Assembly: GCA_003577145.1 (NCBI GenBank)
Contig: QEUP01000018.1
Location: 1 to 64,000 of the forward strand
DNA length: 64,000 bases
Source: Acidobacteriota bacterium
GTDB lineage: Bacteria; Actinomycetota; Acidimicrobiia; Acidimicrobiales; Microtrichaceae
Direction: 5' to 3'
This document shows positions 1 through 16,720 of the stretch, piece by piece; the stretch's first letter is position 1, and the number at the start of each line of letters is the position of its first letter. The notes under the pieces are model-generated. The model worked only from the letters and a program-made list of their open reading frames with translations, had not been told where the DNA came from and did no database searches. The translations under genes were made by a program, and so were the position numbers.

Positions 1-908
1 ATCTCGTGCGGGAATCCCAGCTGCCGAATCGGAACGATGTCCCGCTGCCAACCTGCCTGGGCAACGACCGGAACGATGTCCTGTCGGCCAAGAGCTACCC
101 CGGGTGCAGGAAGACACTGAACCTGAAGGACGTCCCCCGAGGCGGCAACGCGTTGGCATCAGCAACGGCGGAGGAGAAGCCCGTTCAGGGTCACCCGTCC
201 CTCTGGGTGCCGAGGGCATCGCTCCCGCACTTTCGTTCCGCTTCCCGGTGGTCGCCCAAGTGGCATGATTCCAGCCTATGCCGAGTCGAGGACTTCTTCT
301 CCCCGCAATCACACGGGGGGGCCCAGCGGGTCGCCGGCGATGAGCCGATCGTCGACTTGGCGGAGGAGTATCGCCGCTCCGAGGATGAAGCCTCCTCTGA
401 GCGTGAGGGGGTGAAGCCGTTCCTGGTCGAATGCACAAGCCATGCGGATGAAGTGAGCTTCGTCGTAGCGCGAGTACGGGATCTTGTGAGCAACCAGAAG
501 GCAGTGGGGCTCGGCGACATTGCTGTATTCGTGAACACCAACCGAGCAGCCCGAACCTGGATGGCCGAGCTGAAGGAAGAGGGCCTTGAATGTCAGGGTC
601 TCGATCGGTACGAAGGAATACCGACGCCAGCGGTAAAGGCAGGAACCTACTTCCGGGCCAAGGGCCTCGAGTTCAAGGTCGTCTTTCTGCCTGGTCTCGA
701 TGACACCGGATTCCCGAAGCCGAAACCTGACTGGCAGGATGAAGCTGAGTACGAGGACGAACGTGCTCTGCAGATAAGCCAGGTCTTTGTTGCGATGACT
801 CGTGCCCGGGACGGCCTGTTCGTCCTCGCGAGTGGCCAGCCGAGCCCGCTGTTGGCCCAAGCCACCGACTGCTTCCAGCTCGTGGAGCAACCGGATGAAG
901 GCGACTAG
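1..908 (+). pseudogene. UvrD/PcrA-type helicase, C-terminal remnant
   Basis: The frame is open to the window edge and has a GTG at 6. Only the part after about base 327 looks like protein. It carries the helicase 2A/C-terminal signatures: a KGLEFKVVFLPGLDD motif (motif V type) near bases 660-700 and VAMTRARDGLFVLA (motif VI) near bases 790-835. The ATPase core (Walker A and B) is missing. The first 100 codons are low-complexity and contain a short duplicated stretch (RNDV twice), unlike any helicase. I read this as a decayed gene whose last 190 codons survive. It lies 53 bases upstream of another SF1 helicase on the same strand, so the two may once have formed one operon. Whether the 5' part continues intact left of the window cannot be seen. 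Confidence 0.55.
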
Positions 909-961
909 AGGCAGCTGGTCGGTGTTGTCGCGCATACTCGTGCTTCAGGTAGGCCAGCGGG

Positions 962-3874
962 ATGAAAGCGGGGTTTGGCTCGGTGGATGAGGTCCAACCT
1001 GGCGAGCGGCTGGCCGTAACGGGCCAAGTAGGTGCCCACAGGAGGCGGGATCGGAGGAGCGGGCCTGCCTACATACAGGCACCAGTGAGATCTCCCGACG
1101 GAACCGAAGTCCTCTGCACCTGGTGGGAAGAAGCCTTGGCTCCGAAAGAGGGGTCGACGGTTGCCGTCGTGGGCGAGGGCTGGCGGGACGGCTCGCTGAC
1201 GGCGAGGAGAACCCAACTCGTAGGAGAGTCGGAGCGCCCATTCGAGCATCGGCTCCTCGACTACTACCAGGCATGCCTCGAGGCCGAGCAGGCTTCAGAC
1301 GAGCAGCTCCGGCTCGGCAGCCGTTCGGTACTCGTCCTGTCCGATGGCCGCGCACCGATTGCCGGCGCGAGGACGGTCCTCCCTCCCGGGGAGCAGGTGA
1401 AGCGCTGGTGCGACGCCCGCAGAGTCGCCGGTGAAGCCGAGACCGTCTACGCCGGATACCCGATCGTCACCTCAGAGCCCGACTCCGGCCGCGGAGAATC
1501 GCCGATCACCGCGCCTCTCCTGATGACCGAAGTCCGCGTCGTAGCCGAGGGTGACCGGTTCGCCCTGGAGACTAGGTCTGCTGCCATGGAGCTGAACGGC
1601 TACGGGCTCGCACTCCTGAACATACCGGCTGAGGAACGAGAGGAGATCCTCAACGCCTTTGAATCGCTGGACCTCCACCCAGATCCGACTCAACGGGTCG
1701 CCGAGGCCTTGGACTTCCTGCGAGAGGCGAACGTGCTTGGCGCCGATCACCTCGATCCCCGGAATCTCCGGCCGGTCGAGCCGGGGCAGCGGGTGCAGAA
1801 CTCATCGATCGCCTACGTGACCGCGGCGGAACAGGTGAGCACAACGCGTGCGCTGTTCGAGGACTTCAACGAGTTGCGTGCACGCCCCGTCGACGGGCTG
1901 AGAACCGGTCCGGTGGGCGTTCTCCTCGGTCATGAACCCCCAGACCCTTACCCAGAGCCCGAGCCGTCGCCAGCCGTGTTGCCCTCCAACCTCGAGCAGG
2001 AGCGTGGAATAACAGCAGCGATGAAGGCCAATCTCACCGTCGTCACCGGGCCGCCCGGTACCGGTAAGTCCCAGGTGCTTGCCAACACCGTCGCCGCCGC
2101 CCTCGCTGCGGGAGAAACCGTGCTGCTTGCCTCGAAGAACAACCACGCCATCGACGTGGTTGTCGAGCGGGTGCGCCAGGCCCACCCTGATGCAGAACCA
2201 GTCAGGCTCGGCAGGGCGGAATTGCGGGTCGAGGCTGCCCGCCTGATGGGAGCGGCCCTTGCTCGACCCGCCGTTGAGGACAGCGGACTGGATCGGGCCA
2301 AGGCTGCGTGGTCCGAAGTCCGTGCCCGGGTGATGGCACCCTACGACCGGGTGCGGGAACGCGACGAGCTCCTTCGAGAGATCGACCGCCAGGAGCAACG
2401 GTGCGAGCGGGTTTCCGGCGAGCTGCCGGAGGGTTGCCGGCACGTCGGTGCTGACGTCGACACCGATTTGCTCCTCGCATCGCACCAGATGGCTCGCCGA
2501 AGTCACGACGAAGCCGGCGGTCTGCGCAACCGCTGGTTCTGGCAGAGGCGCAGGTATCGAAAGGCTCAGACCGCCGCTGATGACGCGACGCGGACAATGC
2601 TCACACTGGCCGGAATGGCAGCACAGCCCGCTTTGACCTCGGCCCTGACAGGAGGCACCAGGAGCGCTGTCCTCGAGCTCGTCGGGCGCATGATCACCCT
2701 CGCCAGTGAGCAGAGCCGACTCGCCGAGCTCCGTACCTACCTGGACCTGCTGCCGACAGTCGAAGAGGCTGATCAGCAGATCGAAGCATCCTTCCGCGAG
2801 CGGCTAGCCCCCGCTGCCGAGTTGTACGGTGCCGGCTGGCGACACCGGTTGCGGCGGCGCAACGCCCCCGGCCGGGCGCCCGCTGCTGCATACCACGCCA
2901 GGCTCGCCGAGGTGGCGTCAAGTGGCGGTGGAGCGCGGCGAATTCGTGCCGACGCCGGTAAGGCCTTGGATGCGTTCCCGGTTTGGGCTGTCACGAGCCT
3001 GCCGGTGGGAAACGCGCTACCCCTGACGCCCGGCATGTTCGATCTGGCGATCATCGATGAGGCCTCTCAGAGCGACATCCCGTCCGCTCTGCCTGTGCTC
3101 TACCGCGCCAAACGAGCAGTCATCCTCGGTGATCCGCGCCAGCTCACCCACATCACGACTGTCGGATCTCGAATCGAGGCGGTCCTCGCCGAGCGCTGCG
3201 GGCTGACCGAGGAACAGGGCTCAGAGTTCAACTACGTCGGTACCAGCCTCTACGCGCTTGCCGCTTCGAGGTCGAGCGAGGAACCGATCTTCCTTCGCAG
3301 GCACTTCCGATCTCACCCCGACATCGTCGAGTTCTCGAACCGCACCTTCTACGGAAGCAGGCTCGTCGTCGAGACGGACCCGTCCCGCTACATGGATGGA
3401 TCCGCAGTCCGTTGGCACGACGTCGTCGGACGGTTCGAGCGCAACGCACTCAACCGCTCGGCGCTCAACAAACCCGAGGCCGAAGCAGTTCTCGACGAGC
3501 TCGCCCTGGCCTGGGAAGGCGTGAGAGGTACCGGTCGCACCCTCGGCGTGGTGAGTCCCTTCCGTGCGCAGGTCGACCTGCTTCGTGACCTGGTTGTGCA
3601 GCGCTTCCCGGACATGGTGGGAAACGTCACCATCGACACGGCGCACGGCTACCAGGGTGACGAACGAGATGTGATGATCATGTCGCCTGTCGTGACCGAA
3701 GGGATGACGGAGTTCCTCGTGCAGCACGCAGGCAACCCCAATCTCGTGAATGTCGCCGTCACCAGAGCCCGGGCTCGACTGGTCATTGTTGGTGACCATC
3801 GCGCTTGCCTCGACTCCGGCAACGTACTTTCTGCGCTCGCGCAGCATGCGTCCGATATCGGAGGGAGGTCTTGA
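962..3874 (+). CDS. SF1 helicase, UPF1/Dna2-like (970 aa)
   Basis: Large superfamily 1B helicase/ATPase. The N-terminal 120 residues look like a beta-rich OB-type region. A middle region precedes Walker A GPPGTGKS near residue 363. A long charged insertion follows (residues about 430-660). Walker B DEASQSD is near residue 698, followed by the GDPRQL motif III. The RHFRSHPDI motif, SPFRAQV, HGYQGDERDV and a final VNVAVTRARARLVIVGD (motif VI) complete the RecA2 lobe. All ATPase and helicase motifs look intact. The gene follows a helicase remnant and precedes two HNH endonucleases, so a role in restriction or defence is an inference. UPF1-like helicases with a nuclease partner are common in defence islands, but no nuclease domain is visible in this protein itself. 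Start ATG 962 is the first in frame; the RBS is weak. Confidence 0.8.
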   Translation: MKAGFGSVDEVQPGERLAVTGQVGAHRRRDRRSGPAYIQAPVRSPDGTEVLCTWWEEALAPKEGSTVAVVGEGWRDGSLTARRTQLVGESERPFEHRLLDYYQACLEAEQASDEQLRLGSRSVLVLSDGRAPIAGARTVLPPGEQVKRWCDARRVAGEAETVYAGYPIVTSEPDSGRGESPITAPLLMTEVRVVAEGDRFALETRSAAMELNGYGLALLNIPAEEREEILNAFESLDLHPDPTQRVAEALDFLREANVLGADHLDPRNLRPVEPGQRVQNSSIAYVTAAEQVSTTRALFEDFNELRARPVDGLRTGPVGVLLGHEPPDPYPEPEPSPAVLPSNLEQERGITAAMKANLTVVTGPPGTGKSQVLANTVAAALAAGETVLLASKNNHAIDVVVERVRQAHPDAEPVRLGRAELRVEAARLMGAALARPAVEDSGLDRAKAAWSEVRARVMAPYDRVRERDELLREIDRQEQRCERVSGELPEGCRHVGADVDTDLLLASHQMARRSHDEAGGLRNRWFWQRRRYRKAQTAADDATRTMLTLAGMAAQPALTSALTGGTRSAVLELVGRMITLASEQSRLAELRTYLDLLPTVEEADQQIEASFRERLAPAAELYGAGWRHRLRRRNAPGRAPAAAYHARLAEVASSGGGARRIRADAGKALDAFPVWAVTSLPVGNALPLTPGMFDLAIIDEASQSDIPSALPVLYRAKRAVILGDPRQLTHITTVGSRIEAVLAERCGLTEEQGSEFNYVGTSLYALAASRSSEEPIFLRRHFRSHPDIVEFSNRTFYGSRLVVETDPSRYMDGSAVRWHDVVGRFERNALNRSALNKPEAEAVLDELALAWEGVRGTGRTLGVVSPFRAQVDLLRDLVVQRFPDMVGNVTIDTAHGYQGDERDVMIMSPVVTEGMTEFLVQHAGNPNLVNVAVTRARARLVIVGDHRACLDSGNVLSALAQHASDIGGRS

Positions 3875-4120
3875 TCGCCGAGCGGAGGACCGTGGGATCA
3901 ACCATGAGATCGGGTCACGACCGTCGCACACGGAACGGATCAGCGATACCAGAGTCGTGATGCGAGCGTCCAGCGTTGCCCGGCCGGCCAGGCGATCATA
4001 TCGACCGTCGGCCGTCGGATCGTAGGATGAGACTGCCGAGCGCGTGTTACGAGCAGTGGGCTGAGGCCGAAGACCTCTTGAAACGGGGCAGCTCAGCCGA
4101 GGCGCCACCGCGTTGGCGGG

Positions 4121-5044
4121 TCAGCCGGCACGGCGGAACTGCTCGTATCGCTCCTCGAGGAAGTCGGGATTCGGATGGTCGGGCTGCCGGCGGGGTAGGA
4201 GGATCTTCGCGTTGTGCACTCCCTGCAAGCCGTGGCGGAGCATCGGTCCATCCTCCTCGCCGAGGACATCGCTGCGGATCTCGATCACGTAGTCGGGCCT
4301 GACGCCCATGATGTGGCGATCGAACGCCGCGTGGTGGATCTTGCAGAGGGCCAGCCCGTTCGGCACAACTGGCACCCCCCGTGGGTCGCTGTCGGGGAGA
4401 ATGTGGGCCGCATCGAGCAACTCGACATGATGAAGGCGACAGACCGCACACGTCTGCCGGTAGGCGCGGAGCACCCGCTCTCTGAAGGCGGCCTGGTGCA
4501 ATCGCCGCAGGGTGAGACGCCTGGCGTAGGACCGGCCCGCTTCGCCGGCCGGACCTGTTCCGAGCTCTGTTCCTGCGGCAGCGCCCTCGTAGAGCGCAAC
4601 CGCCACGTGTAGATCACCCGGATGGTCCTCGACGATGATCGACGGCCAGAAGGGCTGGTAGCGGCCCTTGTCCACTCCGTAGAGGTAGATCAACGGTCGC
4701 TGCAATTCGAAGAGGCGCCGCAAACCGACGTTGAAGTGATTGCGCGGATCGGTTCCTTGGTAGCGGTAGACGAGAAGGCCGTCGTCGCGGACGACGTCCT
4801 CGTACGGTGCGGGCCGGTTGGCCTTCGGGGGGGCGGTGGTGATGCTGATCGGAAGCTCGAGCGCTGCCGGTTTCCAGATGCCACTCGCACCGATGAGCTG
4901 GATCTCTGTTCCATGATGGGAGAACCCACGTTTGAGCAGGTCCCACGGAAGGACCTCTCCGTGTCGAAGGGTCTGCTCGTCCAGGAACTGAAACGCGGCC
5001 AGCCGAACCTCGTGGTCGAAGGTATCTACGAATGGCTGATCCAC
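4121..5044 (-). CDS. HNH endonuclease with SRA/PUA-like N-terminal domain
   Basis: 307 residues, GTG start at 5044. The C-terminal half is a zinc-type HNH nuclease: CAVC (199-202), DAAHIL (211-216, first His), the Asn in VPNGLALC, then KIHH (about 225-228). The N-terminal half (about residues 60-150) has the pattern PISITT...VYRYQGTDPRNHFNVGLR...PLIYLYGV...YQPFWP. I associate this with PUA/SRA-like beta-barrel readers fused to HNH domains, which in modification-dependent restriction enzymes flip or read a modified base. It is divergent from a second HNH gene with only 82 bases between the two starts, so a shared control region is likely. The modification recognised cannot be told from sequence. 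Confidence 0.75.
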   Translation of the reverse strand: MDQPFVDTFDHEVRLAAFQFLDEQTLRHGEVLPWDLLKRGFSHHGTEIQLIGASGIWKPAALELPISITTAPPKANRPAPYEDVVRDDGLLVYRYQGTDPRNHFNVGLRRLFELQRPLIYLYGVDKGRYQPFWPSIIVEDHPGDLHVAVALYEGAAAGTELGTGPAGEAGRSYARRLTLRRLHQAAFRERVLRAYRQTCAVCRLHHVELLDAAHILPDSDPRGVPVVPNGLALCKIHHAAFDRHIMGVRPDYVIEIRSDVLGEEDGPMLRHGLQGVHNAKILLPRRQPDHPNPDFLEERYEQFRRAG

Positions 5045-5126
5045 GACCGCGCAGCGTAGGCCAGGTCCAACGGAGTTTGCGGTGTGCAGATGGGAGTGGC
5101 GGAGGTGACTCGCCTACGCTCGCTGT

Positions 5127-6050
5127 GTGCTTGGGCGAGACGAGTGGCTGGAGCGGGTCGCCTCGATCCGCCAGTACCAGAAGGGTGGTGAGCGGGCACC
5201 GCACAAGCCGCTGCTCCTGCTGTACTCGCTGGGGAGGCTGCACAACGTCGGCCGGTCGAAGGTGGCCTACGCCGATGCGGAAGCACCGCTTCTCGAGCTG
5301 TTGGAGTCGTTCGGGCCCCCCCGTCCCACAACGCCTGCCTACCCGTTCCGACGGCTGGCCAACGACGAGGGCCTGTGGACTCTCGAAACGGCGACGGGTG
5401 AGCTTCCAACCGACTCAGCCGGGAACCTGAAGGAGTTGCAGACCTCTGGCCGGCTCGATCCCGAGTTCGAGGCGGCCCTCCTTGATGATCCCGGCATGCT
5501 TGCCTCGGTTGCCCGGTATCTGCTCGATGACAACTGGCCCGAGTCCCTTCACGCGGACATCGCCGATGCAGTCGGTCTCGATCTCGATGGGCTGGAGGCC
5601 GACCTCGCCCGCTCACGACTCGCAGCGGACAAGGAGGAGGTCTCGAGGCGCAAGCGCGATCCACGATTCCGGGAGCGGGTTCTTGTTGCTTACGAGCGCC
5701 AGTGTGCCTTCTGCGGCTACGACGGCCGCCTCGACTCGAGCACGATCGGGCTCGATGCTGCGCACATCCGCTGGCACGGGTTCGACGGAACTGACACGGT
5801 CGACAACGCGGTGTGCCTCTGCGTCTTCCACCACCGGCTGTTGGACCGGGGAGCGATGGGTATCGCCCCGGAGCTCACCGTCCAGGTGTCCGCGCATTTC
5901 GTGGGGCGAGGGGATGTGGCCGCACGGCTGGTGCTCGAACGGGCGGGGGCGCCGCTGCTCGGCCCGCAGCTGGGCGAGCCGGCTCCCTCCGAGGACAACG
6001 TCGAGTGGCATCTCCGGGAGGTGTTCAGGGAGCCTGCCCGTCAGGCCTGA
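5127..6050 (+). CDS. HNH restriction endonuclease with sulfur-binding domain
   Basis: 307 residues, GTG start at 5127. The N-terminal region has APHKPLLLLYSLGRL (24-38) and AYPFRRLAND (71-80). I associate these patterns with the sulfur-binding domain (SBD) of ScoMcrA/SprMcrA-type enzymes, which recognise phosphorothioated DNA. The C-terminus is an HNH nuclease: CAFC near residue 192, DAAHIRW near 210, DNAVCLC, and FHHRLLD near 234. The length fits the short SBD-HNH class. No dnd or ssp phosphorothioation genes lie in the window, which suits an enzyme that attacks foreign modified DNA. A relic of the 3' end of a second copy lies at 8337-8423. The SBD assignment rests on motif memory; the HNH part is clear. 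Confidence 0.75.
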   Translation: MLGRDEWLERVASIRQYQKGGERAPHKPLLLLYSLGRLHNVGRSKVAYADAEAPLLELLESFGPPRPTTPAYPFRRLANDEGLWTLETATGELPTDSAGNLKELQTSGRLDPEFEAALLDDPGMLASVARYLLDDNWPESLHADIADAVGLDLDGLEADLARSRLAADKEEVSRRKRDPRFRERVLVAYERQCAFCGYDGRLDSSTIGLDAAHIRWHGFDGTDTVDNAVCLCVFHHRLLDRGAMGIAPELTVQVSAHFVGRGDVAARLVLERAGAPLLGPQLGEPAPSEDNVEWHLREVFREPARQA

Positions 6051-6056
6051 CCGATC

Positions 6057-7859
6057 TCAGGCACATCCCTCGATCGCCGCAACATAGTCCCGCAGCCCGG
6101 CGTGTATCCCCGTGACGCGGCCTTCGCCGCTGATCTCGAACTTGACCGCGTACTCCCGGTCCTCGGCGTCGAGCGGCTCGTACCAGAAGTACCACCCGAA
6201 GAGGTCGTAGACGTGGGGTTGGAGATAGATCTGGTCGCCGTAGGTATCGAGGACCTTGACCTCGGAGTCACCTACCTGGATGCCCGAGAGCGTCGACCAG
6301 CCGGATTCCCAAGTGACCACGCTCCCGATGATTCCTGCTTTCGGGTCGCTGCTCACTCCTCCCGCGTTGCCGACCATGAAGTTGATTCCTTCCAGACCGT
6401 CGATGGTCGCGTAGTAGCAGTAGCCCTCGAAGGTGTCGAAATCCTCGATCGTGAACGTGACGTTCGCCGCTTCCTCCGCCTCTCGCACCGTCATGCCGGC
6501 CTCGATGGGGCCGAAGCCACGCAGCGATATGCGGGTGTCGTAACCGACCGCGGGGCCGCTCTTGGTGACGCTCACCTCATACCCCAGCGTGCCTGAGGCC
6601 AGCTCGGCGAAGAACGGGTCGGTTGCCATGGTTTCTGCACCACGACTTGCGGAGTTCAACACCGACTCGGTCACAAGGCTGCCCAACCCCTCGCCGTAGA
6701 CCTCCGTGACCGCTTCACCGGTGCAGGCGAAGGCCCAGTCGGTTGCCGCGCTGAGCCAATCCATCGACAAGGGCGACGGGTACCGTGCCAACAGACCGCC
6801 GGGTTGGAGCGCGGCGAGGGCGCAGTCCGTCTGGGCGAGGGCCTTCAGCACCTCCTGCCGGGCCTCGTCGTCCGCTTCGGCCACACCCAGCGCAGATGCC
6901 ACCCGCAGGTGGGCGGCGACTGCCGAGTCGAGGGTGTCGATCACGAACGTCGCCGGCGAGGTCATCGTGCGCAGGGTCGTCGAGCTGCCAGGAGACAAGC
7001 TCACGGCGAAGTCGGCGGCGTCGCCGCCGTGGACGGGGAAGACGCTTGCGCCGGGGGATGCACCAGCTGTCCAGACGCCCCACCACAAGCCCCACTGCAA
7101 CGGGTTCGCCAACACGATCGGCGGCACCCACGGAGCCGAGCGCGGTGCAAGCCCCCGGTCGTGGCTGACGACGATCCCGTAGCCGCGGTTGTTGTCGAGC
7201 TTCAACACCGGCTCACCACCGGCATATCCAACGCACCACTGGACCCGATCGCCGCCACTGCTGGTCACCTCGTACCCGTCGTCGGAGAGCTGACCGGTAG
7301 CGTCACACGCCGGGGCAGCAGAACCAGCGGTCGAGTCGCTCCACGCGCCGGCGCTCAGCTCGGCCAGCCAGGCGTCGACCTGCTTGTCAGACAGCACGAA
7401 CAGGCCGAACGTCGAGAGGTGCTCGGTCGTGGCGACGACGTCGTCGCCGTCGGACCGGGTTGCCACAGCCGACCAGGTGTCTTCGTCCAGACCGGCCACG
7501 AACGGCGTGCCGTCGAGCCCGCCTTCGACCGAGAAGCTGATGGTGGCGCTTCCAGTGAGGTCGGCGCCGGCGAGGTCGATGTCGACCACCTCGCCGGCGG
7601 GTTGGGTCCCCTCGGGCGGTGGAGTGTCGTCCTCGACCACCCGCACCGCGAGCGTCCCGTCGGAGTCCACTGCGTTCGGCGGGATGTCCACGGTGACCGC
7701 GCCCACGGTGAGCGATCCACCTTCAGAAACGGTGACTGTGGCGTCGTCGGGAGCGGCTCGGCCGGCGTCTCTCACGTCGGTGTCCGTACACGAAGCAGCG
7801 AGAAGGCACGCAGCCACCGCAATCCAACCGATTTCGCTGGTGGCGTGAGTTCCCCTCAT
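6057..7859 (-). CDS. Secreted lipoprotein, unknown function (600 aa)
   Basis: Start ATG 7859 is chosen over upstream in-frame starts because a purine-rich AGGGGGCAGAG lies just before it and a lipoprotein signal peptide begins there: hydrophobic WIAVAACLLAASC with lipobox Cys near residue 20. Residues about 35-150 are a beta-rich region with VTVDIPPNA and an alternating pattern like ZU5-type domains. The last 150 residues carry the pattern LRGFGPIEAGMT, an IQVGDSEVKVLDTYGD segment and a final EGC. That tail recurs in actinobacterial secreted proteins without a fixed function. It converges with the SBD-HNH gene with six bases between their stops. No enzyme motif is visible, and a link to the neighbouring endonucleases is not evident. 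Confidence 0.75.
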   Translation of the reverse strand: MRGTHATSEIGWIAVAACLLAASCTDTDVRDAGRAAPDDATVTVSEGGSLTVGAVTVDIPPNAVDSDGTLAVRVVEDDTPPPEGTQPAGEVVDIDLAGADLTGSATISFSVEGGLDGTPFVAGLDEDTWSAVATRSDGDDVVATTEHLSTFGLFVLSDKQVDAWLAELSAGAWSDSTAGSAAPACDATGQLSDDGYEVTSSGGDRVQWCVGYAGGEPVLKLDNNRGYGIVVSHDRGLAPRSAPWVPPIVLANPLQWGLWWGVWTAGASPGASVFPVHGGDAADFAVSLSPGSSTTLRTMTSPATFVIDTLDSAVAAHLRVASALGVAEADDEARQEVLKALAQTDCALAALQPGGLLARYPSPLSMDWLSAATDWAFACTGEAVTEVYGEGLGSLVTESVLNSASRGAETMATDPFFAELASGTLGYEVSVTKSGPAVGYDTRISLRGFGPIEAGMTVREAEEAANVTFTIEDFDTFEGYCYYATIDGLEGINFMVGNAGGVSSDPKAGIIGSVVTWESGWSTLSGIQVGDSEVKVLDTYGDQIYLQPHVYDLFGWYFWYEPLDAEDREYAVKFEISGEGRVTGIHAGLRDYVAAIEGCA

Positions 7860-8107
7860 CTCTGCCCCCTCGTGAATGCTGAACCCGCCGCCGGTGCACC
7901 AGGGCCGAAGGGCCGTGAGAGCAACGACCTGCACGGCCCCCGGCCCTGTCTCGGCACACACGGCACGCCGTGCCTGCGTCAGAAAGCGTCGACAACGTGT
8001 ACCAGGCTGCTGTGACCGGTCGGGCCGTGCTTGACCGGTCGAAAGCAGGCGCCAAGCGAGCAACGCTCGCGTGAGAGCGCGTCACAGGCACTTACGACCA
8101 CGAAGTG

Positions 8108-8469: not shown

Positions 8470-8712
8470 ATGCCGGAAGTGAGTGCCACAGAAGCAGCAC
8501 GGAACTTCGCCGACCTGCTCGATGCGGTTGAGCACCGAGGGGCCGAATACACGATCGTTCGCCGCGGCAAGGTGGTCGCACACCTCGAGCCGGTCACGAC
8601 GGGGAAGGGCTCACAGGTCAAGCAGATGCTAACCCGACACGGGCGGGATGCTGAGTGGACTCGCGACCTCGAAGCATTGCGAGAGCTGCTCGTAGTCGAG
8701 GACCGCCGTTGA
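8470..8712 (+). CDS. Phd/YefM-family antitoxin (80 aa)
   Basis: The N-terminus EVSATEAARNFADLLDAVEHRG followed by IVRRGKVVAHLEP is typical of Phd/YefM antitoxins. This domain binds DNA and autoregulates the pair, and the C-terminal tail (ALRELLVVEDRR) would wrap the toxin. The short TGATAT-poor upstream region includes an inverted motif around 8451-8468 (CAGATAACCTGATGTC), which may be operator or promoter. The stop codon overlaps the toxin start in the sequence TTGA. Confidence 0.85.
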   Translation: MPEVSATEAARNFADLLDAVEHRGAEYTIVRRGKVVAHLEPVTTGKGSQVKQMLTRHGRDAEWTRDLEALRELLVVEDRR

Positions 8713-9107
8713 GCCGGCTGCTCCTGGACACGACCCTTCTGATCAGCGCCGACCGCGACCGGGAGTCCCTCGACGCGGTGATCTCTGATGACGACGACGT
8801 GGCGATTGCCGCGATATCCCTCGCTGAGCTGACTGTTGGAGTGCAGCTGTCCAGCGGCAAACGGAAGCGCGATCGCCGAGCCTTCGTCGATGACCTGTTG
8901 GAGAGCGTTCCCGTGATCCCCTACGACCTCACGGTGGCCGAGTCACACGCCACGCTTCTCGTAGCGGTTCGTAGACAGGGACGACCGAGGGGTGCCCACG
9001 ACCTGATCATCGCAGCCACGGCGCACGCCACGGCCCGGGAGGTCGTATCAGCTGATCCGGCAGGCTTCGAGGGCCTACCTGGAGTCGGGCTTCGCACCCA
9101 CCCCTAG
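8709..9107 (+). CDS. vapC: VapC-type PIN-domain toxin (132 aa)
   Basis: PIN-domain ribonuclease. Start TTG 8709 overlaps the antitoxin stop (TTGA) and gives a protein beginning SRLLLDTTLLISADR, the usual VapC N-terminus with the first catalytic Asp. The second acidic residue lies in SLAELTVGV, and the third in GAHDLIIAATA near residue 100. All three needed acidic positions are present, so the toxin looks functional. VapC toxins cleave RNA, often tRNA. The pairing with a Phd/YefM rather than a VapB antitoxin is a common mix. Confidence 0.87.
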   Translation: MSRLLLDTTLLISADRDRESLDAVISDDDDVAIAAISLAELTVGVQLSSGKRKRDRRAFVDDLLESVPVIPYDLTVAESHATLLVAVRRQGRPRGAHDLIIAATAHATAREVVSADPAGFEGLPGVGLRTHP

Positions 9108-9227: not shown

Positions 9228-12200
9228 TTACGCCAACAACCCGGCCAGGCTGGCTTCGATGTCACCGTCGACCAGTTCGGCGCGGTCGGCTTGGGTGAGC
9301 CAGCCGACTTTGGTGCCCGTCGGGGAGCTTGCCACCGCCAACACGTTCGGGATGCGCTCGGCCACCGCCTTGACGTGGCTGATCACGACGACGAGGCGGC
9401 CCTTGGCTGCCCTGGATTCGAGCGCATCGAGCGCGGCGTCGAGGCTGTCGGCGTCGAGCGCGCCGAACCCCTCGTCGAGGAACAGGGCGTCGAGACGGCC
9501 CCCGGCGCGCGCTGCCAGCTCGACCATGGCCAGGGCGAGCGACAGGCTCGCCAGGAACGACTCGCCGCCCGAGAGCGTGCGGGGCGACCGGGGCTGGCCC
9601 GACTGCTGGTCGACCACCTCGAAATCGGCCGAGAAGCCGAACCGGCCGCTGGTCACTTCCGAGAGGATGCTGGTGGCCACCCCCAACAGCGTCCGCTGCC
9701 GGCGGGTGATCAGGTGGTTGATGAACGCGCTGTCCAGCAGCTTGGAGCGCACCAGCTCGAGGGTGTCGAGGAACTCACGGCACTGTGGGATCCGGGTGTC
9801 GAGATCGGTCACAACCGGGATCTGATCACGAGCGGCTTTCCCGTCTCGGGCCGCCGACTTCTGGTCGGCCATGGCCGCCGCCCGAGCCTCCTCCAGCGCC
9901 GCCTTGTCGGCCAGGTCGTGCTCGCCGAGCAGCGTGCGGGCCCGCCGCTCCTGCTCGTCGGCTTCCTCGTCAGCGGCTGCGGCAGCGCCAGCGGCCTGTG
10001 TGGCCAGATCGGATGCGCGGGCGACGACTGCCTCGGCCCACGCGACACATGAGGCGAGACCGGCCCGGTCTTCAGGCGAGGTAGGCAACGCCTCGGTTCC
10101 GAGGTCACTGGCCAAGTCGGCTGTGCGGCTGGCGAGGACAGTGAGCCGGGAAACAGCCTCGTCCTGGGGCTCGTCCACCGATTCGCGGCACTCCTTCGCC
10201 AGGCCGTCGACCACTTCACGCTGCTCCTCGCGCTTCTTCCCCCGGGCATCGACTTCTGCAGCGAGGCCGCGTAGCCGGTCGAGGCCCTCAGCCATCTCCT
10301 CCAGCAGGGGAGTGAGGTCGATCACCACAGAACCCGGGTCGGTATCGGTCACCGCTGCTCGGAGATCGGGGAGATCGGGCTGCCAGCGCGCAGGCAGCGA
10401 CAACGCCCGCTCCTCGACGTCGTCGGCCGCTGCCGTTGCATCGTCGGTGACCTCGCGCAGGGCCCCATGCCGGTCGGCAAGGGTCTTCTCGGCGTGCTTC
10501 GCCGCGGTGGCAGACCCGGTGAGATCGTTGCGCGCCGCCTCGGCGGCCCCGGCCAGCTCGGACGCAGATGCGGTGGCCACCTCGGCCTCGTCTCGTAGCG
10601 GGGCCAGGAGCGTGTCCAGCTCACCCAGCATCTCCGCATCGATCTCGGTACCCAACGCCTCGGCGGCCTTCCCCAGGGCCTCGGCTGATTCGGGTGCCGC
10701 CTTGTCGTGCGCCGCCTCGGCGTCGGCGACAGCCTTCTCCGTCGCTTCCAGCCGGGCGCCGGCCGCGGCCGCTCGGCCTTGTGCCTCGTCGTGCGCACCC
10801 TGCGCCTGCTCGACACGCTCACGCGCCTCGTCCAGCTGTGGCGCCACCGGCGGGCTGAACCCCTCGGGAAGATCGCGCTCACAGACGGGGCAGGCGTCGC
10901 CGCTGTGCAGTCCGGCTGCGGCGGCCGCAGCGTGATTCGCCCGCTGGGCCATCTCGAAGCCGGCGCGGGCTTGGTCCAGCGCCACCTTGGCCGACGCCGC
11001 ATCCTCGTTGGCTGTCGCGGCGTCGGCGATCTTCGACTCGAGCGCCGAACGGGCGTCGGCGAGAGCATTCTCGGTCCCGGCCAGCTTCTCGTGGGCATCC
11101 CGCGCCCTGGTAGCTGCGTCGGCGGCGAGCCGCAGGCGCTCGGCTGCCGCATCGCTCTGGGCACCGGCCGCCTTCGCCGCCTCGGCGGCCTCGGTCGCCT
11201 CGGCGGCGGCGGTCGAAGCGCGCTCCTTCTTGTCGGCCAGGTCGGCTTCGGCTGCCTCGACCTCGCCTCGGCGGACCACCACCCGCTCCACGAGTTGGTG
11301 CAGGCCGGCGATCAGCCCGGCTATCGCCTCGGCACTCCCCCGAGAAGCCGTCAGATCCTCCAGCTTCCCGAGCTCGGACTCGGCACCCGCCAGCTCCTCG
11401 CGGGCCGTGGCCAGCTCGGCCCCGAGCTCTTCGAGCGACTCACGCGCCCGGGTCATCCGCGCGTCGAGATCCTCAGCAACCGGCAGCAGCTCCTGGAGAG
11501 AGGTCAGGTGCTCGCCGAAGCCCGATGGGTCGACCTTGGCCGCGCCTTGTCGCAGTCGGGTGGCCCGGTCGCGCGCGTCCCTCGCGCCATCGCCCAAGGC
11601 CGTGATCTCCTCGGTCAACTCGGTGAGGACCGCCACCCGGCTCTCGGCGGACGCAGCCCGCTGCTCGGCCTCCTCGGCCACAGCCACCGGGTCATCGAGC
11701 AGGTTGCCCCGGCGCAGTTCGAGGGCGGCGAGCTGCGGTTGCAGGTCGTCGTGCAGCGACTGGGCCCTCTCCCGTACCTCCACCAAGCGGTCGACGGCGA
11801 ACAGGTTCTTGAGGATCCGGGTGCGCTCGGTCGGAGTGACGGTGAGCAGCTCGGCGAAGCGGCCCTGGGGCAGCAGCACCGTGCGGAGGAAGGCGTCGTC
11901 GTCCAGGCCGATCAGTTGCTGGATGCGCTGGTTGACGGCCGCCTTGCCATCGACCTTCTCGTCGCCGTCGACCTGCTCGAGGTGGTGAACCGCCGCCTGG
12001 GAGCCGTGCGACATCGACCGCACGACCCTCCAGTGCCCACCGTCGGCCTTGAACTCGAGCTCGACCCGCATGGTGTCGGCGTAGTGAGAGATGAGATCGC
12101 CCGGTTGCCCCGACCAGGTGGAGCGCCCGTAGAGGGCGTAGGTGACGGCTTCGAGGATCGAGGACTTGCCGGCGCCGGTGTCGCCCACGATGGCCATCAG

Positions 12201-12278
12201 CTTGGTGTCGCTGAAGTCGATCGTCTGCGGGTCGCGGTAGCTGCGGAGCCCACCCAGGGTCAGGCGAAGCGGCCTCAC
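9228..12278 (-). CDS. sbcC: SbcC/Rad50-type SMC ATPase of the nuclease complex
   Basis: 1016 residues, GTG start overlapping the sbcD stop by 4 bases (GTGA). Walker A GDTGAGKSS is at 32-40, followed by a Q-loop region. Two long Ala/Glu/Arg-rich coiled-coil arms flank a zinc-hook CPVC motif near residue 464. The C-terminal lobe has the ABC signature SGGESFLASLSLALAMVEL and Walker B LDALFLDEGFGALD. With SbcD it forms the Mre11-Rad50-like complex that opens and trims DNA ends and hairpins in the cytoplasm/nucleoid. Last gene of the four-gene nurA-herA-sbcD-sbcC operon. The very Ala-rich arms follow from the GC content. Confidence 0.95.
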   Translation of the reverse strand: MRPLRLTLGGLRSYRDPQTIDFSDTKLMAIVGDTGAGKSSILEAVTYALYGRSTWSGQPGDLISHYADTMRVELEFKADGGHWRVVRSMSHGSQAAVHHLEQVDGDEKVDGKAAVNQRIQQLIGLDDDAFLRTVLLPQGRFAELLTVTPTERTRILKNLFAVDRLVEVRERAQSLHDDLQPQLAALELRRGNLLDDPVAVAEEAEQRAASAESRVAVLTELTEEITALGDGARDARDRATRLRQGAAKVDPSGFGEHLTSLQELLPVAEDLDARMTRARESLEELGAELATAREELAGAESELGKLEDLTASRGSAEAIAGLIAGLHQLVERVVVRRGEVEAAEADLADKKERASTAAAEATEAAEAAKAAGAQSDAAAERLRLAADAATRARDAHEKLAGTENALADARSALESKIADAATANEDAASAKVALDQARAGFEMAQRANHAAAAAAGLHSGDACPVCERDLPEGFSPPVAPQLDEARERVEQAQGAHDEAQGRAAAAGARLEATEKAVADAEAAHDKAAPESAEALGKAAEALGTEIDAEMLGELDTLLAPLRDEAEVATASASELAGAAEAARNDLTGSATAAKHAEKTLADRHGALREVTDDATAAADDVEERALSLPARWQPDLPDLRAAVTDTDPGSVVIDLTPLLEEMAEGLDRLRGLAAEVDARGKKREEQREVVDGLAKECRESVDEPQDEAVSRLTVLASRTADLASDLGTEALPTSPEDRAGLASCVAWAEAVVARASDLATQAAGAAAAADEEADEQERRARTLLGEHDLADKAALEEARAAAMADQKSAARDGKAARDQIPVVTDLDTRIPQCREFLDTLELVRSKLLDSAFINHLITRRQRTLLGVATSILSEVTSGRFGFSADFEVVDQQSGQPRSPRTLSGGESFLASLSLALAMVELAARAGGRLDALFLDEGFGALDADSLDAALDALESRAAKGRLVVVISHVKAVAERIPNVLAVASSPTGTKVGWLTQADRAELVDGDIEASLAGLLA

Positions 12279-13528
12279 GAGGCCGCCTTTCCGACTGTCG
12301 CGAGATCGAAGAGGACCTCCTCGTCGAAGGCGGCCTCCGTCTCGGCCTCGGCCGCCCCGAGGAGATCGTCGAACACCCTCATCGCCCGGTCGACCGCGGG
12401 CGCCGGTGTCTCCTCGGTGGCGAGGTACTCGCGGAAGAGGTCACCCAGCGGGGGCTCGGCGTCGGCCTCACCGGTGTCGGTGACCACCTCCACGAGCGCG
12501 GCGCTGCACCTCTCGGCGATGTCGTAGATGTCGGCCTCGGGGAACAGCTCGGTTACCTGGTCGGCGAGCTGCGGCACGTGCTCGTCGGTGCAGCAGATCA
12601 CCTGGAGGATGGCGTCGCCGACCTCGTGGCGATGCCGTTCGAGTTCGCCCAAGCTGCCTTCGAGGCGCACCAGCGGCCGTCCGCCCGACAGCTCGACCCG
12701 TTCGATCGAAGCTGCCGCGCCGGGTGAAGCCTCGACGCACACCACCGACTTGACCTCATCCCGCTCGCCGAAGTCGATGGCGATGGGCGAGCCGGCGTAC
12801 TCGCCGGGGACGGTGCCCGGCAGCGACTGGGGCTTGTGGATGTGGCCGAACGCCGCGTAGGAGACCTGGGGGAGGTGCTCGGTGCGGGTGGCGAAGGTGT
12901 CGGTGATGTGCAGCGGCCGCTCGGATCCCGAGAAGGTGGCACCCCCAACATGGAGGTGCGCGGCGAACAACAGGACGTCGCGGCTCGGGTCGTAGCCCTC
13001 GCTCAGGCCGGCACCGAGGTTCTCCTCCACGTATCTGACCTGGTCGGTGTAGTCGGCCTTCCAGCGTTCGGGCGGCACGCCGAAGACCTCCATGAGCGTG
13101 TTGGGGTGGATGAACGGGACCGGGGCGAGGCGGATGCGTTCGCCGTCGCTGCTGGTGAAGTCGACGATGCCGCCTTTGGCCGCAGGTCGGGCCTTGGGGA
13201 TGAACCGCACCGGCTTGGCCTTGCCACCCGACCCGAGGTCGAGCAGGCGGTCGAAGATGCCGAACAGCGCGGCGGAGTCGTGGTTGCCGGCGAGCACGAC
13301 CACCGGGGCCCGCTCCGAAAGACGCCGAAGCGTCTCGATGCCCAGCGAGAGGTCTTCGGTGGCGGGGCGGGGATGGTCGAAGAGGTCGCCGGTGTGGAGC
13401 ACCAGATCGGGGCTGAAGTCCGCGCACACCGCGACGATCTCGCCGAGGACGCGCTCGTGGTCGGGGCGCCGCCGGACCCGCCCGAGGGTGGCGCCGAGGT
13501 GCCAGTCCGAGACGTGCAGCAGCCTCAC
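12275..13528 (-). CDS. sbcD: SbcD/Mre11-type exonuclease subunit
   Basis: 417 residues. Calcineurin-like phosphoesterase with all metal motifs: HVSDWHLG (5-12), HTGDLFDHP (about 45), LAGNHDSA, AAHLHVGG and FGHIHKPQ (about 225). It acts as the Mn-dependent nuclease of the SbcCD complex. The C-terminal capping region (about 280-400) ends with a segment that would bind the SbcC coiled-coil base. GTG start overlaps the upstream herA stop by 4 bases, and its stop overlaps the sbcC start by 4 bases, so translation is coupled on both sides. Confidence 0.95.
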   Translation of the reverse strand: MRLLHVSDWHLGATLGRVRRRPDHERVLGEIVAVCADFSPDLVLHTGDLFDHPRPATEDLSLGIETLRRLSERAPVVVLAGNHDSAALFGIFDRLLDLGSGGKAKPVRFIPKARPAAKGGIVDFTSSDGERIRLAPVPFIHPNTLMEVFGVPPERWKADYTDQVRYVEENLGAGLSEGYDPSRDVLLFAAHLHVGGATFSGSERPLHITDTFATRTEHLPQVSYAAFGHIHKPQSLPGTVPGEYAGSPIAIDFGERDEVKSVVCVEASPGAAASIERVELSGGRPLVRLEGSLGELERHRHEVGDAILQVICCTDEHVPQLADQVTELFPEADIYDIAERCSAALVEVVTDTGEADAEPPLGDLFREYLATEETPAPAVDRAMRVFDDLLGAAEAETEAAFDEEVLFDLATVGKAAS

Positions 13529-15330
13529 AGCTTGTCGAACACCTCCGCGCTCTCGTCGCCGGAAGCGGCGGCACCGGCCCCCTCGTCGGGGTTGGTGGCG
13601 AAGGCCGGGAACGGGAACCGCAGCGGTATCGGTGCCGGGATGAGCGGCTGGTCGAGCACCATGGTGCCGGGAAGGAAGCGGGTGGCCCGCTCGCGCAGCT
13701 CCTGGGTGAGGAACCGGTACTCGGCCGACTCGGCCGAGTCGAGGCGGCCGACCACCTTGATCGCCGAGTTGCGGATGATGGCGGGGTCGACCGCTGTTGC
13801 GGCCTGCTGGGCTCCGACGAGGAGCACGCCGAGGCTGCGGCCCCGCTCGGCGATGTCGACGAGCACGTCCTTGATGGGGCTGGATCCCTCGCGGGGGGCG
13901 TACTTGTTCAACTCGTCGAGCACCACGAACCGCAGCGGCTCGCGGCCGGTGCCCTGTTTGGCGGAGAACACCTCGTCGAGCAGCGCGCCCACGACGAAGC
14001 GCTGGGCGGTGGTGTGCAGGGAGTGCACGTCGACGACGTGGATCGACGCGCCCGCACGGATGTCGACCTTGGTCACGCCGTCGCGGATCAGATGGCCCAG
14101 CCGCGGTGTGAGTGCGAACAAGCGGCGCAGGAACGCCATGACCGTGCCCGCTTGCACGCCGCCGGTCCAGGAGGTGTCCTCGTTCTCGGGGTCGACCTTG
14201 TCCTCGACATAGGAGATGAGGTCGGCGAAGCTGCGCACTCCGAAGCCCTCGCCGGGCTCGAGCTCGGGCCGCCGGTCGGTGATGACCCGGTCGAGGTTGA
14301 ACCCCGTACCGCCGGGTGGCTCGGCCATCACCAGCGCTCCGGGCCGGCCCTTCATCGGGTAGGCGTGGCGGGCGAGCTGGACCCGCACCCGCTGCTCGAT
14401 GAACGGCACCTGGGTGCGGGCGTCGTCGGCCTCGGTGAAGCAGAACCGCAGCAGCCCCTCGCGCACGAACTCGGCCGGGGTCCAGCCGAAGGCGGTGACC
14501 TCGTCGGAGCGTCGCGACACCACGTCGGGTGCGACCGAGTCAGCAGACGCCCCCTCGCCTCTCGGGGCATAGAGGCACACCGACCGGAACGGCCCCGGCT
14601 CGGTGACGCCTAGGGCGCGCCATTGCTCGGTGGCGTCGGGGCGCTCGCCGAAGCGGGCGTTGGGGCGGTCGAGGTGCAACAGGTCCTCGCCCTTGACGTT
14701 GAACACCAGCGCCCGGGTCTGGGCCGAGCCCATGCCCAGCAGGCTCTTGCCGTGGGCCGTCTCGAGCAGCTGGTACAGGAGGAACAGCGCGTAGCTGGTC
14801 TTGGTGGCCACGCCGGAGATGCCCGAGATGTTGACGTGACCGCCCTTGGTGCCGTTGAGGAAGGCGAAGTCGACGAACACCGGGTCGCCAGCCTGGTCGA
14901 GGCCCACGGCGAGGGGTGCCTCCATCTGGTCCATGAACAGCGCCTGCTCGCGTTCGGCGCCGGCGGCCCGGTGGACCTCGGCCCCCGGCTCGGGGGCCAA
15001 CCAAAGCTCGGGGGCGGTGCGCAGGACCTGCACCTCGACGCGGCGGGCGGTGAGGCCGGGCATGGTCTGCTCGCCGGCTATGCGCACGGTGTCGGAGGCG
15101 AAGGTGGCGCCTTCGATGTGGCGCCGGCCCTCGACGACGATGCCGAAGTGGGCGACAGAGCGGCCGTCGGGCAGCCGTTGACGGCACACCAGCAGGTCGT
15201 CGAGTTGGACCACGGCGTCCTCGTCGAGCACCACCCAGAAGCGCTGGGTGGTCGAGTCGGTGGCGCCGTCGATCAGGCCGACTCGTCGGCCCGAGCCCGA
15301 TGCGGGAGCGGAGGGTGTGGTGTCGGTCAT
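13525..15330 (-). CDS. herA: HerA-like hexameric DNA-translocating ATPase
   Basis: 601 residues from ATG 15330. This start is preferred over an open extension to 15417 because AGGTGATC precedes it and it leaves only 7 bases after the nurA stop. The N-terminal beta-barrel (HAS-like) region covers about residues 15-130. The ATPase domain has a P-loop at about 165-177 reading GISGVATKTSY, which lacks the usual Gly before the Lys. Walker B is VVLDELNKYAP near residue 471, followed by ERGRSLGVLLVGAQQA (sensor-type motif) and an Arg-bearing VVGRLDSAES. In archaea HerA drives NurA during 5' end resection together with Mre11-Rad50; here the same four genes are one operon. Family assignment is firm, biochemical activity inferred. 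Confidence 0.85.
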   Translation of the reverse strand: MTDTTPSAPASGSGRRVGLIDGATDSTTQRFWVVLDEDAVVQLDDLLVCRQRLPDGRSVAHFGIVVEGRRHIEGATFASDTVRIAGEQTMPGLTARRVEVQVLRTAPELWLAPEPGAEVHRAAGAEREQALFMDQMEAPLAVGLDQAGDPVFVDFAFLNGTKGGHVNISGISGVATKTSYALFLLYQLLETAHGKSLLGMGSAQTRALVFNVKGEDLLHLDRPNARFGERPDATEQWRALGVTEPGPFRSVCLYAPRGEGASADSVAPDVVSRRSDEVTAFGWTPAEFVREGLLRFCFTEADDARTQVPFIEQRVRVQLARHAYPMKGRPGALVMAEPPGGTGFNLDRVITDRRPELEPGEGFGVRSFADLISYVEDKVDPENEDTSWTGGVQAGTVMAFLRRLFALTPRLGHLIRDGVTKVDIRAGASIHVVDVHSLHTTAQRFVVGALLDEVFSAKQGTGREPLRFVVLDELNKYAPREGSSPIKDVLVDIAERGRSLGVLLVGAQQAATAVDPAIIRNSAIKVVGRLDSAESAEYRFLTQELRERATRFLPGTMVLDQPLIPAPIPLRFPFPAFATNPDEGAGAAASGDESAEVFDKL

Positions 15331-15337
15331 GTGCTGA

Positions 15338-16306
15338 TCACCTGGGGCTGGGTGACGGGACAGGGGCGAGTTGGACCACGGCGTCGTTGACCGCTCGGCT
15401 GGCGAGTGCGCCGTCACCGAGTTGGCGCCTGAGGTGCGCCTCGAGTGCAGAGATCGGTTGGAGGTTCTGGGGGGCGCGGGGGTCGACGTGGGCCACGCCG
15501 GCGAAGCGGGGGAGCGTGGCCGCAGCCCGGTCGGCCCGGTCGACGGCGGCGGCCAGTCCGGCTGAAGCGGGGATCTCGATGCGCACGACGCCCGACCAGG
15601 GCCCGGCGCTGCGGGCGCGGGGGGCGATGCGCAGGTAGCAGGAGTAGATGTCGGGCCGCTTGGAGAACAGCGAGGTGCGCTGGCCGGATTGCAGGCCGGG
15701 GACCCGGGCGTGCAGCTCGGGCGGGAGCAGGCGCCGGTAGTGGGTCTTGACGTAGCCGATGACGGGCAGGTCGCGGGACCGCACGTAGTTGAGGGGCCCG
15801 TCGACGACCGTGAGGTGCCCCTCGGCGCAGAGGTCCTCGGCCAGAGCGCCCTCGGCAGATCGCATGCGCTGCTGGAGCTCTGCCAGGGGTGCGTTGGGAT
15901 CGGGTGAGGAGATCGAGTGGGCGGACCAGCGCCAGCCGCCGGGCTGCGCAGGTAGCTCGGCGTACTGGCCCGACCCCCAGATGACCATGCGGCTGGCGTT
16001 GCAGTCGTGGAACGCCGGGCGCTCGCCGGGGGCTGTGACCACCGACCCGCAGCCGTGGGCGCCTGCCACCCCCCGGGCCATGTCGGAGCCGAAGGTCATG
16101 TAGAGGTGGGCCTCGCCGCGGCGGACGCCGTCGACGAAGGCGACCGGGCCGTCGAAGCCGCCGGCGCCGCCATGGAAGGCGAGCTCGCCGTCGCCGTCCT
16201 CGAGCGGTTCGAGGTCGGGTCCCTCCTCTTCGTCGGGGTCGATGAGGTAGGGCGATCCGTAGGTCGCCTCCCAGCCCTCCACGAACACATGCCGCTCGTC
16301 GTCCAT
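15338..16306 (-). CDS. nurA: NurA-type nuclease
   Basis: 322 residues from ATG 16306; longer in-frame upstream sequence runs into the divergent gene and is rejected. It has the NurA-domain pattern: a first catalytic Asp in VAFVDGVRRG (near 59), a second Asp in LTVVDGPLNYV (near 170) and the following VIGYVKTHYRRLLP. These match the DGS, DGPL and VK(S/T) motifs of NurA. NurA is a 5'-3' nuclease that works inside a complex with the HerA translocase. It is the first gene of the operon and its stop is 7 bases before herA. Divergence from archaeal NurA is high, so the call rests on motif order plus the HerA and SbcCD neighbours. Confidence 0.8.
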   Translation of the reverse strand: MDDERHVFVEGWEATYGSPYLIDPDEEEGPDLEPLEDGDGELAFHGGAGGFDGPVAFVDGVRRGEAHLYMTFGSDMARGVAGAHGCGSVVTAPGERPAFHDCNASRMVIWGSGQYAELPAQPGGWRWSAHSISSPDPNAPLAELQQRMRSAEGALAEDLCAEGHLTVVDGPLNYVRSRDLPVIGYVKTHYRRLLPPELHARVPGLQSGQRTSLFSKRPDIYSCYLRIAPRARSAGPWSGVVRIEIPASAGLAAAVDRADRAAATLPRFAGVAHVDPRAPQNLQPISALEAHLRRQLGDGALASRAVNDAVVQLAPVPSPSPR

Positions 16307-16492
16307 CCCGGTCAGCCAGCCCCTGCTCGCGTCTCGTCCAGTCTCGTCTCGCACCGCCCACGTACACCCTCGACGTGACGGCCAACAGCTGAATCGTAGG
16401 CGGCGCCGGTGACAGCGGGGGTCCCCGGAACACCGGCAGGTCTGATGGCGCATCCCCGGCGCTGAGCCGGGCCGATCTGCCAAGCTCTGGCC

Positions 16493-16720
16493 ATGCCCGA
16501 ACACCGGATCTACATGAGCGTCCCCGAGCACGAGATCGTCAACACCGACGTGGTGGTCGCGGTGTTCAGCGACGAGGAGAAGCTCGGGGAGGTCCGCATC
16601 AGTCGCGGGACCATCGACTGGGTGCCCCGAAACCACACCCACGCCTTCAGGATCGGCTGGGAGGCGTTCGACGCCCTCATGCGCGACCACGGCAGCCGCC
16701 AGGAGATCCGCCTGCGGTAG
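16493..16720 (+). CDS. Small conserved hypothetical protein (75 aa)
   Basis: ATG start at 16493. The predicted protein is strand-rich, with EKLGEVRISRGTIDWVPRNHT in its middle and an aromatic helix GWEAFDALM near the C-terminus. Similar short proteins with a KLGxxxxSxGxxxWxP pattern occur in actinobacteria and phages, but I know no function. It is divergent from nurA with 186 bases between starts. Its 3' end overlaps the converging frameshifted coiled-coil gene. Confidence 0.55.
   Translation: MPEHRIYMSVPEHEIVNTDVVVAVFSDEEKLGEVRISRGTIDWVPRNHTHAFRIGWEAFDALMRDHGSRQEIRLR

Follow-up and report, generated by a model that had tools for sequence, protein, structure and literature searches.

A pair of divergent HNH nuclease genes, found near a contig end beside a gene for a UPF1-like SF1 helicase, is read here as a two-enzyme, type IV-like (modification-dependent) restriction locus with the helicase as a neighbour and not a component, an interpretation favoured by a slight balance of probability. 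Judged by its sequence, one nuclease is a member of the phosphorothioate-dependent SBD-HNH enzymes, while the N-terminal half of the other is suggestive of an SRA-like reader. The DNA analysed, called the window throughout, is a stretch of 64,000 nucleotides beginning at base 1 of its contig, in a genome of 68 contigs and 4.05 Mb. No description of this nuclease pair was recognised in the open-access literature searched. The relevant features are as follows.

3..908, plus strand: 5'-open ORF of 300 aa with a UvrD_C end (ORF call, Pfam)
962..3874, plus strand: UPF1-like SF1 helicase, 970 aa (Pfam AAA_11/AAA_12)
4121..5044, minus strand: HNH_2 nuclease with a short SRA-like N-half, 307 aa (Pfam)
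5045..5126: gap of 82 bp between the two divergent nuclease genes
5127..6050, plus strand: SBD-HNH nuclease, 307 aa (NF045808)
6057-8063, minus strand: ORF of 668 aa, no Pfam match
8470-9107: Phd-like and PIN genes (Pfam/NCBIfam scans)
9228-13528: sbcC/sbcD-like genes

An earlier note on this DNA had four genes standing together at 327-6050, and the ORFs, Pfam domains and helicase motifs do lie as it placed them, with the two HNH genes divergent as it described. Both 307-aa proteins match Pfam HNH_2 (41.2 and 33.0 bits, cut-off 21), and the 82-bp gap contains no match to the sigma-70 consensus.

The 5127..6050 protein scores 298.7 bits to NF045808, for which the cut-off is 180. A 13-row profile of its family (A2) matches, among other PDB entries, 5zmm (8.1e-17) and 7ccd (5.4e-16), which we take to be ScoMcrA and SprMcrA respectively, and 8h0l, 'SBDHga1' (6.6e-6), with the matches to solved SBDs covering the N-terminal half of the profile. 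The protein carries the marks H26-K27 (APHKP from residue 24) and Y72-P73 (YPF from residue 72), equated with the sulphur site by motif and not by structure, and both are kept in 11 of the 13 aligned rows; the residues of this site are described as relatively conserved, namely HK or HR, and YP (PMC7461809). The HNH residues are H213, N227 and H236, and the HNH and zinc residues are invariant across A2 (13/13). Those members of the SBD-HNH family that have been assayed cleave phosphorothioate (PT) DNA close to the modification, and the target of the window enzyme, to judge from its motifs and scores, is very probably DNA with sulphur in the backbone. In domain order, score over cut-off, HK/YP marks and HNH residues the enzyme resembles the known PT-dependent members (SprMcrA, EcoWI; NF045808), and it also resembles them in that DndC is absent from its genome by a genome-wide search, an absence which at the same time sets the locus apart from a Dnd modification-restriction locus. 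Unlike those members, it is paired with a second reader-HNH gene.

Near-full-length SBD-HNH relatives are present in 7 of 148 genomes of the window's family and order, counting the window's own and G045, where the gene is split over two frames; beyond these, G104 has a fragment. DndC exceeds its cut-off in two of the 148 genomes, one of which, G147 (L139), is the only genome to combine it with an SBD-HNH relative, and there the motifs read APYKP and HPF, with both marks lost. Less than 3.6% of such genes are reported near dnd genes (PMC7461809); by contrast, the Dnd loci of 698 taxa encode a three-domain wHTH(SBD)+SAD(SRA)+HNH protein (PMC10853773).

The 4121..5044 protein shares with the SRA-HNH enzymes (TagI, ScoA3IV) an N-terminal reader and a C-terminal HNH with CxxC and CxxH. 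Its HNH residues are H214, N229 and H238, whose roles are assigned by analogy, and by the same analogy C199, C202, C234 and H237 are presumed to be zinc ligands. Together with the HNH residues, Y81, D83, Y93 and N105 are invariant in 24/24 rows of the family, the rows having been chosen from about 40. The two tyrosines lie 12 apart, as do Tyr55 and Tyr67 of the TagI pocket (PMC6212794). The protein differs from the SRA-HNH enzymes in that SAD_SRA (PF02182) has no match in it at E<=0.1, in the weakness of its profile similarity, and in its conserved Asp, placed at Tyr+2 as against Tyr+3 in TagI. SAD_SRA is likewise without a match in the window's genome at E<=0.001. When the N-half was compared by hhalign with five SAD_SRA-positive proteins, a weak match was obtained (P=0.004, with a probability of only 8%), the control against SBD giving P=0.4; the alignment register is as expected, with PYED on GYED (YED on YED), LPLIY on GLPVRV and the tyrosines 12 apart. 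The full-length comparison with SRA proteins reached a probability of 97% because the HNH halves drive the score. A PDB search with the whole protein by sequence returned chance matches only, and by profile the match was to TagI, over its HNH half; no relative of the N-half turned up in a scan of viral sequences, and a single-sequence AlphaFold2 model, at pLDDT 34, was unusable. Given the missing Pfam SRA match and the weak profile match, the protein is called SRA-like and is not filed as SRA-HNH. The earlier remark that both nucleases seem to read DNA modifications is supported for the SBD member (NF045808, profile and marks), whose N-half matches solved structures, and is suggestive for the SRA-like one, at the P value and probability just given.

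Full-length SRA-like HNH relatives occur in 17 of the 148 genomes of the family and order (the window's included, and one with an internal stop), with a fragment in G104 in addition, and matches at E<=1e-25 are found in 36 of 346 genomes sampled across the phylum. Avoidance of C5-methyltransferases by the hosts was not detected in the family and order (4/17 against 45/131, p=0.27).

If the two enzymes form a restriction locus, the SBD enzyme would act by cutting PT-DNA that enters from Dnd+ donors, and the SRA-like enzyme would cut DNA with another mark, possibly a modified cytosine; the 82-bp gap would serve the two divergent genes as a common control region. The window was earlier said to hold no modification genes, and indeed Pfam finds none among the 19 window proteins scanned, all within 1-34.2 kb, with DndC missing genome-wide; the statement does not extend to the rest of the genome, where a full-length cytosine-5 methyltransferase (C12:17626-18648, 188 bits) lies on another contig and a fragment of one on a further contig (C51). 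The presence of a cytosine methyltransferase in the window's own genome counts against a type IV reading.

The nuclease pair is also met in family f104 of the same phylum. In G271 (L189) an SRA-like HNH gene is followed on the same strand by an SBD-HNH gene with 322 bits to NF045808, the first ending at 1754 and the second having a possible start at 1738, so that the two possibly overlap. In G292, of the same genus, the gene order is the same and is spread over two contig ends (L194, L195), between which the SBD-HNH gene is split; the SRA-like gene there is without about 40 residues of the N-half. In G312 (L190) a 66-aa SRA-HNH fragment (profile E 3e-7) lies at the contig edge upstream of an intact SBD-HNH gene. 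Elsewhere in f104, the two nuclease genes of G260 are 0.9 Mb apart, with the SBD-HNH frame broken, and only fragments of SBD-HNH are present in G483, on contigs that lack an SRA-like gene; the fragments of both nucleases in G104, from the window's own order, are on different contigs. Pairs outside the window come from f104 without exception and are effectively one event. As the pair is divergent in the window and on one strand in L189, and as each window nuclease has relatives closer to it (56%) than the corresponding L189 protein (41%), the window and f104 pairings may be independent, the trees being weakly supported.

A reading of lower, still appreciable probability is that of defence-island clustering, in which a PT-dependent SBD-HNH enzyme and an SRA-like HNH enzyme, the latter possibly sequence-specific and type II-like, lie together with a helicase and a toxin-antitoxin pair, each acting on its own and with no function in common. 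It agrees with the Phd-like and PIN genes at 8470-9107, with the varied partners, or none, beside which each nuclease family occurs, and with co-occurrence per genome, which is not significant (p=0.07 with the window's genome and 0.23 without it, the samples for the two families being taken as the same 346 genomes). At E<=1e-25, both nuclease kinds share a locus in two of the 63 collected loci, the window included. What speaks against mere clustering is that in G271 and G292 the nucleases are adjacent on the same strand, with hardly any gap or none between them, which would presumably be unlikely under random placement.

The surroundings of the SRA-like gene bear on the same choice from both sides. 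A cytosine-5 methyltransferase adjoins it in two of the 17 order-level loci (L120 and L129), accompanied in L129 by a Vsr gene as well, and these neighbours, which suit a type II enzyme better than a type IV one, speak for separate functions. The opposite is suggested by three of 39 collected loci in which the SRA-like gene adjoins another HNH family, divergently in L250 and L267 and in tandem with overlap in L260. This partner family is assigned by Pfam HNH_4 in L267 and L260 and by homology in L250. Its members (L250 5527-6582, L267 4967-6139, L260 2634-3836) have a TYKxALL N-half and an HNH end; kinship of this HNH_4-type family with SBD was considered and found unsupported (hhalign P=0.25).

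Helicases recur beside the SBD-HNH genes. A Pfam-confirmed helicase lies within 2.5 kb in at least 7 of 22 loci (the window, L132, L134, L135, L140, L195 and L200), a count made over the neighbours scanned, with several contigs short, and a figure without a background rate; the 22 loci are the 23 at E<=1e-25 without L269, a duplicate of the L200 record. The helicases are of SF1 and SF2 kinds, their families differing between loci. DUF3427 helicases adjoin both nuclease families, in L117 and L127 for the SRA-like one and in L134 and L135 for SBD-HNH, the latter two matching the PADLOC model of a type IV methyl-directed enzyme (1075 and 937 bits). On a Euzebya pacifica plasmid (L200 2470-10795), genes for a type IIG-like methyltransferase, a PLD-SNF2 helicase and the SBD-HNH enzyme follow one another, with a 4-bp overlap between the helicase and SBD-HNH genes. 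The linkage that recurs is that between the two nucleases, and that of SBD-HNH genes with helicases of several families.

The earlier note had further suggested that DNA cleaved by either nuclease could be processed by the UPF1-like helicase; such an integrated arrangement, with the helicase unwinding or otherwise processing the cut DNA, we consider improbable. It would accord with the helicases found near SBD-HNH genes, including a distant UPF1-like one 2.3 kb away in L132, and with the nuclease or caspase domains fused to relatives of the window helicase, which make a nuclease in trans conceivable. It is contradicted by the changing helicase families at SBD-HNH loci, by the convergent orientation of the window helicase and the adjacent nuclease, and by the neighbourhood survey, in which neither nuclease (E<=1e-3) was found at any of 56 loci around helicase relatives, including the three closest (45-48% identity). 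These loci combine three sets of relatives (44 + 3 + 9), most of the 44 being distant Streptomyces-type helicases (~31% identity), and L022 and L141 being near-alike; 54 have at least 3 kb of flank on one side and 45 on both, with almost none in L273, and further weak matches had flanks of only 1.5 kb.

The 970-aa helicase itself has all its motifs intact (GPPGTGKS, DEASQ, VILGDPRQL, VAVTRA), and a Pfam scan of it shows neither a nuclease nor a caspase domain. Its family is present in 9 of 276 genomes (E<=1e-40), with no match on viral contigs; the best-scoring named relative is from a Microthrix parvicella MAG (L022), and in G054, of the window's order, the gene and its flanks are closely similar to the window's, which would make an Acidimicrobiales-like actinobacterium the likely host. 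The SF1 AAA_11/AAA_12 core is shared with the helicases of Mokosh, Hhe and PLuB. The PADLOC MkoC model, which states no cut-off, scores 166 bits, its match being confined to the helicase core, and the NCBIfam scores fall far under their cut-offs (147 against 999 for PLuB, 92 against 2000 for Hhe). The UPF1-like core is likewise shared with the CnuH helicases of CoCoNuT systems, among which those of type III-B are fused to a Vsr-like nuclease (PMC11090510); unlike CoCoNuT, the window helicase is without a fused nuclease by Pfam. McrB and McrC are absent among the window proteins scanned, the helicase lying 1 kb from the contig edge with one side only visible.

The region upstream of the core is common to CoCoNuT-like helicase-nuclease and caspase-helicase proteins, and the helicases of L023, L054 and L285 match the window helicase there also. 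In Candidatus Jettenia (L023 9195-20435), a relative at 42% in the best segment is fused to an MTES_1575 nuclease end beside a DUF2357 gene, accompanied by an AAA_5 gene below cut-off and by proteins judged by eye to resemble coiled coils, a set that resembles a CoCoNuT operon by analogy of gene content. Caspase-UPF1-like helicase fusions, likely conflict proteins, are seen in Streptomyces phaeochromogenes (L054 6362-10237) and in L285 (8150-11791). The description that fits the window helicase best is that of an orphan related to the UPF1-like conflict helicases; it is probably an independent defence-type gene neighbouring the nucleases, and most likely a passenger at their locus.

Upstream of it, the ORF at 3..908 resembles UvrD/PcrA helicases in its C-terminal part only, the best UvrD_C stretch being residues 213-275 (Pfam), and the codon signal in its frame is weakly positive at 1-180 and negative at 181-270. 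It could equally be a gene cut by the contig edge or a remnant; with the window opening at a contig end, what was called a remnant may simply be a truncated gene. On the other side of the nucleases, the 668-aa ORF (6057-8063), with a lipoprotein-like stretch by eye, sits between them and the overlapping Phd/YefM-like and PIN (VapC-like) genes, likely a toxin-antitoxin pair. Beyond these, SbcC-like, SbcD-like, 630-aa and marginally NurA-like proteins (20.9 bits, cut-off 21) are encoded in a row on the minus strand (9228-16690). The 630-aa protein, without a Pfam or NCBIfam match, appears HerA-like by eye from a motif, and by its gene content the row looks like an archaeal-style end-resection cluster.

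The nearest known counterpart of the nuclease pair is ScoMcrA, in which SBD and SRA occur in one chain with HNH, and which is stimulated by 5hmC, its stimulation by PT being inconclusive (PMC7461809). The window resembles it in bringing an SBD together with a reader of SRA type and with HNH. It is unlike it in that the readers are encoded by separate genes in divergent orientation, both of which include an HNH, and in that the SRA-like half is short and divergent. An unlikely extension of this comparison is that the window holds a split ScoMcrA, in which one reader-HNH subunit would recognise sulphur in the backbone and a separate one a mark on a base. The two would act together, perhaps as a heterodimer with each HNH nicking one strand, and cleavage would follow a combination of two modifications of unrelated kinds. 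If the two window enzymes do form a modification-dependent restriction locus, the two readers known in the single ScoMcrA chain would also be deployed as neighbouring genes. The SRA-like HNH enzymes are a common family with an unassigned reader, the target of which could be found by standard assays.
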